A DNA stretch of 33,305 nucleotides from Hyella patelloides LEGE 07179 (GTDB taxonomy: Bacteria; Cyanobacteriota; Cyanobacteriia; Cyanobacteriales; Xenococcaceae), in contig NZ_LR213816.1 of NCBI RefSeq assembly GCF_900659865.1, forward strand, positions 1 to 33,305, read 5' to 3'. The notes beneath the pieces were generated by a model, which made no database searches, was not told the origin of the DNA, and saw only the letters and a program-made list of their open reading frames with translations. The position numbers and the translations under genes are program-made. The first letter of the stretch is position 1; every line of letters begins with the position of its first letter. This document shows positions 30,521 through 33,305 of the stretch, in pieces.

Positions 30521-31384
30521 TTATGGTTGTGGGATGACTGCACAATGTCCCTCTCCTACATGACCCAGACCAATCACTGCTTTGGTTAATTTTTCTTGTT
30601 CTTCTGGGGACAATTTTTGAGATAAGGTAGCATCATCTACCGACAGGCGATCGCCAGAAGCTAATTCAGCTAAAGGTTGAAAACCCAAAGCACCCACATT
30701 AAGAGAATCATCTGCGCTGGTTTCGCTGTCACCAAAAATATGGTCAAAGTGAAAAGTTGTTTCTACCTCTCCCATGTCTCCTGCTTGAACTATGCCTTTG
30801 CGTTCGTCGCCGACATATTCGCCACAGAGATACTGTATTGGGCGATTTAAACTAATATCGAAATTAATAACCTGTTCGTCTTTACTTGCTTGACCCTGTA
30901 ATACCATAGTTTTGCCAGCCAGGGGGGAGCTTTCACTAGCAGTATCTATTCCCCAAGCCACAGCATTGTAGAACCCAGGAGTAACTTCAGTGTTTACCAC
31001 CATAATTGGTTCGGCATCTGCTTCTCCTTCAGCTAGATTAACAATTTGGGCTGTATCGAGTAAGGAAACTTTTTCCTGATATTCTAGGGTATCAAGGTTG
31101 TCTGTTTCTGTCGGCTCAAAAGGTGCTTGAATTTGGTAAGCAGTCACATCGCTTAAATTTACCTCAACACGATCAAAACTCATTTCCCAGCCATCTTTCG
31201 TCACAAAACCTTGACGAACAAAATCCTCTCCATTGGCTATTAAGTTAAGAGTAGCTTTACTTTGATTATCCACAGCAGTAGAAGGCTCGTCATTACTGCT
31301 ATTTGCCTCGCTACTGTTACTAAAACTAACTATTAGCAGAGACAAGAGAGCCAGAGTATTGAGTTTGATAAAATTTTGGTTCAT
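30521..31384 (-). CDS. Secreted protein of unknown function under a cobalamin riboswitch
   Basis: A 287-residue protein with an N-terminal hydrophobic signal (LNTLALLSLLIVSFSNSSEA), so it should be exported. The mature part opens with KATLNLIANGEDFVRQGFVT and a DGWEMSFDRVEVNLSDVTAY motif, recalling secreted proteins of unknown function in several phyla. In the middle, TTFHFDHIFGD carries two His and two Asp that could bind metal. Two cysteines (YLCGEY and GHCAVIP) might form a disulphide. A cobalamin riboswitch lies about 345 bases upstream on the same strand with no gene between, so expression should fall when B12 is plentiful. A role in cobalt or corrinoid capture is suggested by this control but not shown. 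Confidence 0.8.
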   Translation of the reverse strand: MNQNFIKLNTLALLSLLIVSFSNSSEANSSNDEPSTAVDNQSKATLNLIANGEDFVRQGFVTKDGWEMSFDRVEVNLSDVTAYQIQAPFEPTETDNLDTLEYQEKVSLLDTAQIVNLAEGEADAEPIMVVNTEVTPGFYNAVAWGIDTASESSPLAGKTMVLQGQASKDEQVINFDISLNRPIQYLCGEYVGDERKGIVQAGDMGEVETTFHFDHIFGDSETSADDSLNVGALGFQPLAELASGDRLSVDDATLSQKLSPEEQEKLTKAVIGLGHVGEGHCAVIPQP

Positions 31385-31410
31385 AGTGTCTTCATTTTTG
31401 ATGGTTGATT

Positions 31411-31437
31411 AACGATTTTTCCCAGTAAAAAATCGTT
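31411..31437 (-). promoter_or_regulatory. Hairpin just upstream of start codon (possible expression platform)
   Basis: AACGATTTTT (31411-31420) and AAAAATCGTT (31428-31437) form a perfect 10-base stem with a 7-base loop, ending 27 bases upstream of the start at 31384. It could serve as part of the riboswitch expression platform, acting at translation or termination, but it is far from the aptamer and no U-run follows, so this is uncertain. Confidence 0.35.
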
Positions 31438-31727
31438 TTAGCCCAAAACATTCATTTTAGGTTTTGATTGTTTGAAGTTGAGTAATCGCAAAAGCTCAAT
31501 AAAATTGCGAACAGCTTACTAGCACATATGCGATCGCAGAATATTTGATTTTATTTATAGATTGTAATTATGGAATAAATAGCGCAACAAAATTATTGGC
31601 ACTTAGTTAGTTTTCGTAACGTAGTTAATAAGTAACTAACAATTTTAAGTATTAAAAAACTTTTAACCATCTGTACCTCGCAGATATGCATATTTATCTA
31701 TAGTTAGACGCGAAATTTACCTCTATA

Positions 31728-31935
31728 CTGGCATCGGCGGGCATCCTGACTAAGAGATTTATTGAGATTTATTAGTTAATCATCTCGCGCGTTCCCTGAG
31801 CGTCTTACGGAGTGGCTGTCTTTTGAGGTCTCCTCAAAAGCTTGTACGCCACGTCCGACGCGGGGTCGCTCGTCTCATCACAGTTGCGGGACAGCGTCGG
31901 ATTTACACCGAATTTTCCCCATTACTTTTAATGGC
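31728..31935 (-). ncRNA. Cobalamin (B12) riboswitch aptamer
   Basis: Read on the minus strand, the conserved cobalamin-aptamer words occur in order: GGGGAAAATTCGGTGTAAAT (31901-31920), CCGACGCTG, CCCGCAACTGT (31880-31890), AGCCACT (31811-31817) and GTCAGGATGCCCGCC (31736-31750). This order and spacing match the AdoCbl-type riboswitch, including the B12-box core. The arm between CCCGCAACTGT and AGCCACT is long and contains a hairpin (31821-31839) that also occurs at 11422-11442 in the cpc operon, so it may hold an inserted repeat. The regulated gene downstream is the secreted protein at 30521-31384. Exact ends of the aptamer are estimated. Confidence 0.85.
31821..31839. repeat. Dispersed hairpin repeat inside riboswitch
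   Basis: TTTTGAGG-TCT-CCTCAAAA (31821-31839), followed by GCTTGTAC, matches the hairpin TTTTGAGG-CAA-CCTCAAAA at 11423-11441, also followed (after one T) by GCTTGT. Two copies with the same stem, different loops and shared flank, both in intergenic RNA-coding DNA, indicate a dispersed element. Confidence 0.5.
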
Positions 31936-32188: not shown

Positions 32189-32332
32189 CTACATTATCCC
32201 TAACTGAGAGAGAATTCCTTTGCCAGTAAGTAATTCAGTAGCAACGGCAATAACAAAGCCTAACATAGCTAGACGACCGTTCCAGTTTTCTGCGAATTGA
32301 GTAAAGCCGAGTTTGTTTTCTTGGTTTTCCAT
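32189..32332 (-). CDS. High-light-inducible protein (HLIP/SCP), one-helix Cab-like
   Basis: A 47-residue thylakoid protein. It has the chlorophyll-a/b-binding-like helix with the signature ENWNGRLAMLGFVIAVATEL (residues 15-34), where E15, N18 and R20 are the conserved ligand and salt-bridge residues. It then ends GKGILSQLGIM. HLIPs bind chlorophyll and carotenoids, help photosystem II assembly and quench excess energy, and are induced by strong light. The ATG at 32332 is preceded by GAGG. A -10 TACAAT (32366-32371) and a -35 TTGCAA (32389-32394) on the minus strand are 17 bases apart. Confidence 0.93.
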   Translation of the reverse strand: MENQENKLGFTQFAENWNGRLAMLGFVIAVATELLTGKGILSQLGIM

Positions 32333-32739: not shown

Positions 32740-33305
32740 TTACGCAGCAGCTAGGTTTTGAGCGACAAAATCCCAATTGACTAATTTACCAAGAAAATCA
32801 TCAATGTAAGCAGGACGTTTATTTTGATAATCGAGATAGTAGGCATGCTCCCAAACATCCATAGTTAACAGAGGAACTTGTCCGCTAGTTAGGGGATTAT
32901 CAGCATTAAGGGTTTTAGTGACTTTAAGTGTATCGCCATCTAGGACTAACCAAGCCCAACCACTCCCAAACTGAGTTGCACCTGCATTTTTGAAAGCTTC
33001 GACAAACTTGTCAAAACTACCAAAGTCAGCCTCAATTTTTTTCGCCAATTCCCCTGTGGGAGTACCACCGCCATTCGGTTTCATACATTGCCAATAAAAA
33101 GTATGATTCCAAGCTTGAGCAGCATTATTAAACAGTCCAGTTTTACTAGCATCTCCTGCGATCGCTTTGATAACTTCTTCAAGGGATTTGCTATCAAATT
33201 CTGTTCCTTGAACTGCGTTATTGTACTTACTGACATATGCAGCATGGTGTTTATCGTGATGAAATTCCAAGGTGCTTTTAGAAATTAATGGTTCTAAAGC
33301 CTTGT
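32740..33305 (-). CDS. sodB: Iron superoxide dismutase (5' end cut by window)
   Basis: The C-terminal 187 residues or so of an Fe/Mn-type superoxide dismutase; the start codon and the first few residues lie beyond the window. The metal ligands are visible: His in EFHHDKHHAAYVSKY, His in AWNHTFYWQCMKPNGGG, and DVWEHAYYLDYQNKRP with Asp and His. The AWNHTFYWQCM and FGSGWAWLVLDG blocks are typical of the Fe-SOD (SodB) group, the cytosolic form in cyanobacteria, which removes superoxide made by photosynthetic electron transport. Metal choice cannot be proven by eye. The internal TTG at 33270 is not a start. A hairpin terminator follows. Confidence 0.93.
   Translation of the reverse strand, partial: KALEPLISKSTLEFHHDKHHAAYVSKYNNAVQGTEFDSKSLEEVIKAIAGDASKTGLFNNAAQAWNHTFYWQCMKPNGGGTPTGELAKKIEADFGSFDKFVEAFKNAGATQFGSGWAWLVLDGDTLKVTKTLNADNPLTSGQVPLLTMDVWEHAYYLDYQNKRPAYIDDFLGKLVNWDFVAQNLAAA

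Follow-up and report, generated by a model that had tools for sequence, protein, structure and literature searches.

K-A, an exported protein of 287 amino acids encoded behind a cobalamin riboswitch in the cyanobacterium Hyella patelloides LEGE 07179, is probably a B12-repressed, NikK-like extracytoplasmic metal-capture subunit that is used for cobalt and was duplicated out of a K-L-M-Q-O transporter operon. The riboswitch before K-A probably lets the cell catch cobalt when B12 is low. The stretch analysed here, referred to as the window, comprises 33,305 nucleotides of contig C51 in a genome assembly (G000) of 8.06 Mb and 675 contigs, and its features are collected in Table 1. A sequence-only reading of this DNA had proposed a player in corrinoid or cobalt acquisition; the evidence points to cobalt, and nothing points to the binding of corrinoids.

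Table 1. Features of the riboswitch and K-A region, in positions of the window
Feature	Position	Strand	Basis or remark
Fe/Mn superoxide dismutase, upstream neighbour, cut by the window edge	32740..33303	(-)	Pfam Sod_Fe_C 2.2e-41
Small protein of 47 aa, of the high-light-inducible type; upstream neighbour	32189..32332	(-)	sequence reading
Cobalamin riboswitch aptamer, RF00174	31719..31968	(-)	cmscan
Expression-platform hairpin TCTGCGAGGTACAGA	31670..31684	(-)	Shine-Dalgarno GAGG in the loop; an ATG begins at the last A of the hairpin
25-codon ORF MVKSFLILKIVSYLLTTLRKLTKCQ, possible leader ORF	31593..31670	(-)	direct reading; directly behind the platform
Leader between the short ORF and K-A	31385..31592	(-)	sequence reading and folding
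K-A (P0001), 287 aa, exported and putatively NikK-like, from the nickel/cobalt ECF transporter family	30521..31384	(-)	operon context of the family, tree, dN/dS, predicted fold
N-terminal signal sequence	31304..31384	(-)	lipobox in orthologues, e.g. LIVSC; LIVSF in the window copy
Candidate metal site HFDH (residues 212-215) within E.TFHFDH.FGD	30740..30751	(-)	conservation
C281, part of the second conserved His/Cys cluster (LGHVGEGHC)	30542..30544	(-)	conservation

The B12 aptamer previously proposed on the minus strand passes the Infernal/Rfam check: the RF00174 Cobalamin model is matched over its full length (positions 1-189) with 51.3 bits against a cut-off of 31.5 (E 3.7e-10), and it is the sole Rfam family that cmscan reports in the window. 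Five cobalamin riboswitches are present in the genome, on contigs C53, C6, C51, C95, and C76, with that on C51 being the one in the window. The C6 copy precedes cbiX and the C95 copy precedes cbiM-cbiN-cbiQ-cbiO. The riboswitch on C53 (L001) lies before a shortened hupE-like ORF that is followed by a cobW-like gene, and the one on C76 (L005) is an orphan that has neither an obvious target nor the platform hairpin. The aptamer in the window is itself ordinary, and the novelty is its target, a detached duplicate of a NikK-like subunit.

K-A is the next long ORF downstream of the riboswitch on the minus strand, with its start codon 334 bases from the end of the aptamer and, by inspection, a hydrophobic N-terminal signal sequence. 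Comparison with six orthologues yields dN/dS values of 0.08-0.17, and this purifying selection indicates that K-A is a real, maintained gene. Direct reading confirms the earlier description of an exported protein with an HFDH cluster at residues 212-215 and two cysteines, C187 and C281. The cysteine of the lipobox that is typical of the orthologues is replaced by F in K-A, which thus lacks the simple lipobox pattern matched by 86 of 122 family members. Across these 122 members, H212, D214, and H215 are each conserved at 97%, and the second cluster is retained at 94% for H275, 93% for H280, and 91% for C281. The nearly invariant blocks of the family are ANGEDFVRQGF..KDGW, YNA..W, CGE[YF]VG..RKG, E.TFHFDH.FGD, and LGHVGEGHC.

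Sequence searches of Pfam, NCBIfam, and PDB return no match for P0001, and three other members of the family likewise match nothing in NCBIfam, so that there is no hit to a curated NikK-type model. The fold of K-A predicted by AlphaFold2 from 60 homologues has a pLDDT of 95.2. Among solved structures, the model best matches MbnP of Methylosinus trichosporium (PDB 7L6G), well above the rest, with a Z of 11.1 (VIA-align), an rmsd of 3.5 over 188 aligned residues, and a Foldseek E of 2.6e-3. MbnP is an extracytoplasmic metal-associated protein. The predicted fold of K-A may resemble that of MbnP overall, the identity in sequence is 7%, and membership of K-A in the MbnP family was rejected, there being no match to the Pfam family (PF20243) and an hhalign probability of 1.4% against nine MbnP proteins. 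Such a resemblance would fit a role in periplasmic metal capture and is no proof of it.

The family to which K-A belongs has more than 120 members in Cyanobacteriota, Chloroflexota, Bacillota, Thermodesulfobacteriota, and Fermentibacterota. Eighty homologue loci come from named genomes, with many Dehalococcoidia among the Chloroflexota. Genes of the CbiM/CbiQ/CbiO type are found at 72 of these 80 loci and a NikL-like partner at 67, in the order K-L-M-Q-O with K first. The suggestion that K-A is a protein of no known kind thus does not hold, as its family heads the operons of nickel/cobalt ECF transporters. Operon members match Pfam CbiM (2.7e-52) and CbiQ (1.9e-39), and M exceeds the cut-off of the NCBIfam CbiM models; the exported partner L, of 150-160 aa, matches the NCBIfam model "NikL family nickel/cobalt ECF transporter subunit" at 5.6e-11, which is below the model's cut-off. 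Because this layout is that of the Synechocystis NikKLMQO, the family is called NikK-like, by operon position rather than by a curated sequence family. Neither Pfam nor NCBIfam has a model of this family, which in this way gains a defined place, in cobalt/nickel import, in several phyla including the Dehalococcoidia.

Among the loci scanned, a B12 riboswitch accompanies K in one lineage. An Rfam scan of the 80 homologue loci, with at least 1.5 kb of flank in most, found a cobalamin riboswitch at just one of them, in Xenococcus PCC 7305 (L036), and at none of the 79 others; none of the scanned K operons of other phyla has a cobalamin riboswitch nearby. The K-A clade consists of the window and its six closest orthologues at 70-75% identity (G390, G392, G396, G399, G402, and G405; the G392 sequence matches the Xenococcus contig), and in each of the seven a riboswitch lies on the strand of K, 0.3-1.6 kb ahead of it. 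The earlier question of whether homologues carry B12 control thus has an answer that differs by clade, the riboswitch being present throughout the window's clade and absent from the other loci scanned. In the tree this clade has 100% SH-aLRT support and is nested inside the operon-borne cyanobacterial type, indicating that K-A arose by duplication and moved out of the K-L-M-Q-O operon.

Four of the seven members (G390, G399, G402, and G405) have the order riboswitch, cbiX, K, in which cbiX encodes a cobaltochelatase (Pfam CbiX, 3.9e-57). The Xenococcus riboswitch is separated from K by sodB and a small ORF, and in the window and G396 riboswitch and K are neighbours, with no cbiX between them. 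In the G396 gap, the alignment runs through the riboswitch into the beginning of cbiX and resumes in the final bases ahead of K, a deletion scar. Immediately upstream of the G396 riboswitch is an ORF that on inspection looks TnpB-like (L222 302-1513), a possible agent of rearrangement at this locus. Genomes with a cbiX-K operon have two cbiX copies and G000, G392, and G396 have one each, indicating the loss of a redundant copy. The window's own gap holds no cbiX remnant beyond the platform region, and the deletion there is inferred from G396 and from synteny. A gene similar to the 47-aa upstream neighbour also lies upstream of the riboswitch in G402, and a Fe/Mn superoxide dismutase gene is found near the corresponding riboswitch in G390 and in Xenococcus PCC 7305. 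An early idea, prompted by short ORFs, that a decayed hupE follows the window riboswitch was dropped, as the relatives have cbiX in that place.

Between aptamer and K-A lies a hairpin whose loop contains a Shine-Dalgarno sequence. A search of 149 genomes of the order found the 15-mer TCTGCGAGGTACAGA in 81 and a reversed-pattern control in none; the 15-mer also stands behind three other riboswitches of the Hyella genome, those before cbiX, cbiM, and the hupE-like ORF. Of the distinct copies of the hairpin, 65 in number, 54 can form the closing pair (A-T in 38, T-A in 10, G-T in 5, and G-C in 1), and a start codon lies at most seven bases from the hairpin in 64, with 31 of them at its last A. 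Since the closing pairs are kept and the start codon is so regularly close, the hairpin is best read, from these sequence comparisons, as a platform that governs the start of translation. It is near-invariant behind cobalamin riboswitches of the order (loci L145-L174), where it serves hupE, cbiX, cbiM, cobW, and short ORFs. In the literature on these riboswitches, we found no description of the TCTGCGAGGTACAGA platform. Cobalamin riboswitches of cyanobacteria are known to precede hupE and CbiMNQO genes (PMC4284471). The one in the window shares with them its aptamer family and has the same platform as before cbiX and cbiM in its own genome, but differs in its NikK-like target and in the short ORF and 208 bases that separate platform from gene.

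The ATG of the platform in the window does not open K-A but a 25-codon ORF ending at 31593, so the 287-aa gene is not the first open frame behind the riboswitch: the ribosome-binding hairpin and this ORF precede it. ORFs of similar length follow the platform in other genomes, with lengths near chance expectation, and the notion that they encode conserved peptides was dropped, since random A+T-rich sequence would also yield frames of roughly 15-39 codons. In many genomes (loci L116, L122, L125, L150, L155, L160, L163, and L165), the platform start codon likewise opens just an ORF of 17-39 codons before the next gene, and numerous cyanobacterial cobalamin riboswitches may act via short leader ORFs. 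Within the 208 bases from the end of the 25-codon ORF to the start of K-A, folding places a hairpin rich in A+T near 31411-31437, and the stop codon of a 4-codon ORF (ATGAAGACACTATGA) overlaps the K-A start codon (ATGA). A consensus scan found no intrinsic terminator between aptamer and K-A. As the platform serves an ORF that ends 208 bases before K-A, control of K-A must pass either via this ORF or via transcription, a route we infer from the arrangement of the DNA. The ppe2 riboswitch of M. tuberculosis acts via an upstream ORF that is translated, with stop and start overlapping as AUGA (PMC11260477). In both cases, the ribosome-binding site of the riboswitch starts a short ORF upstream of the gene that is controlled in ppe2 and may be controlled in the window, and an AUGA overlap lies at the start of that gene; in ppe2, however, the short ORF itself runs into the target, whereas in the window the 25-codon ORF stops about 208 bases before K-A and a separate 4-codon ORF makes the overlap.

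The history and function that we consider probable would run as follows. The K gene heading K-L-M-Q-O would have been duplicated in this cyanobacterial lineage, and the duplicate placed behind a cobalamin riboswitch and cbiX; in Hyella the intervening cbiX would then have been lost, leaving the riboswitch alone before K-A. At low adenosylcobalamin, the riboswitch would allow ribosomes to bind at the GAGG hairpin, with expression continuing into K-A; the exported protein would bind Co2+ through the conserved HFDH and HC clusters and hand it to the membrane part L-M-Q-O (contig C191), supplying B12 synthesis, and at high B12, expression would fall. Against this reading stand the 25-codon ORF that the platform start codon opens and the position of K-A away from the transporter genes.

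The first of these objections is also the starting point of an alternative that we regard as unlikely, namely that the window riboswitch is the relic of a lost riboswitch-cbiX unit, now ending in a useless 25-codon ORF, and that K-A is expressed from a promoter in its own leader with no B12 control. The disappearance of cbiX from between riboswitch and K-A, its presence elsewhere with a riboswitch of its own, and the orphan on C76 that lacks the platform agree with such decay, as does the start of a short ORF, rather than K-A, at the platform. Unlike the decayed C76 copy, however, the window has an intact aptamer and an intact 15-base platform, and the linkage of riboswitch to K is kept in all seven clade members despite rearrangement, including in layouts without cbiX. 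Moreover, a scan of the minus strand from the riboswitch to K-A, weak as such a scan is, found no promoter-like site.

As to the transporter that K-A serves, K-A is detached from any transporter operon, with the Hyella L-M-Q-O genes located on C191. The K of that operon is a broken fragment (L228 4771-5109), and L, M, Q, and O appear intact. G392, G396, and G399 likewise combine a broken operon K with retained L and M genes, so that in four of the seven K-A genomes, G000 included, K-A is the sole intact K. Among 13 family genomes that have the operon K alone, at most one K looks broken (Fisher p 0.007-0.03, uncorrected for relatedness). The Nik-type M is found in 14 of 14 searched genomes with K and in none of five without it. 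The same search revealed no CbiMNQO-type M in G392, G396, G399, G402, or G405, and in view of these five genomes, it is most likely, judging by gene content, that K-A serves the Nik-type core. It is possible, though less likely than not, that a single ECF core, L-M-Q-O, pairs with either of two exported K subunits, that of the operon for nickel and a B12-repressed one for cobalt, and that the B12-controlled K has replaced the original in some genomes, Hyella included.

The identity of the metal is where known systems pull in both directions. In Synechocystis PCC 6803, deletion of NikKLMQO (sll0381-sll0385) showed nickel import, and cobalt did not rescue the mutant (PMC5904137), so the nearest experimental system counts against the cobalt reading. 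The five-gene layout and the CbiM/Q/O-type membrane and ATPase parts are the same; in Synechocystis, however, K sits inside the operon and the metal is nickel, whereas K-A is detached, lies behind a cobalamin riboswitch, and was once joined to cbiX, the comparison of Sll0381 with K-A here being one of operon layout. It seems rather improbable that K-A is a B12-controlled subunit for nickel, or for both nickel and cobalt, whose B12 control merely reflects its capture by a cbiX operon. Besides the Synechocystis importer, this would accord with the hypA/hypB-like genes (named by inspection) just downstream of K-L-M-Q-O in Syntrophomonas. Urease, a nickel enzyme, is found in 19 of 19 genomes tested, those with K-A included, and a NiFe-hydrogenase was not found in G000; the need for nickel thus persists, and K-A may have a part in meeting it; in four of the genomes K-A is the only intact K. 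On the other hand, B12 repression of the sole K would risk starving urease of nickel, and linkage to cbiX and to a B12 riboswitch is typical of cobalt genes. NikK and NikL are described as extra subunits of such importers, and in five proteobacteria, the riboswitch-linked NikKMLQO operons were read as cobalt importers (Zhang 2009, PMC2667541). Those NikK1ML1QO systems resemble the present case in that a Nik-type K-L-M-Q-O set is linked to B12 genes or a B12 riboswitch, which was read as a switch to cobalt, and differ in that the whole operon is linked there and only a duplicated K here.

That K-A is a surface scavenger of corrinoids is very improbable: genes for corrinoid uptake are often under B12 riboswitches, but the family operons hold metal ECF transporters, no corrinoid-uptake gene is among the recurrent neighbours, and no corrinoid-binding family or solved structure was matched, MbnP being the nearest fold.

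In the literature on NikKLMQO importers, we found no account of the task of the K subunit. A K that is split from its transporter and placed behind a sensor of the end product of cobalt metabolism offers a direct test of whether K sets the metal or affects affinity only.

No plasmid-borne homologues of the family were found, and a published Synechocystis primer pattern had no match in 391 genomes. A Fur-type regulator often precedes K in Chloroflexota and Fermentibacterota. In one Fermentibacterota relative (L106 2698-5821), K-L-M-Q-O is preceded by such a regulator and also by a TonB-dependent receptor, a layout that suggests, from gene order, a complete metal route from the outer to the inner membrane. 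In Syntrophomonadaceae, the hypA/hypB-like genes downstream of K-L-M-Q-O have molybdenum/tungsten riboswitches immediately in front of them at two loci (L081 6556-6985 and L095 11606-11726). Finally, an Anaerolineae genome encodes a 984-aa exported protein that contains four tandem NikK-like domains (L076 5185-8139).
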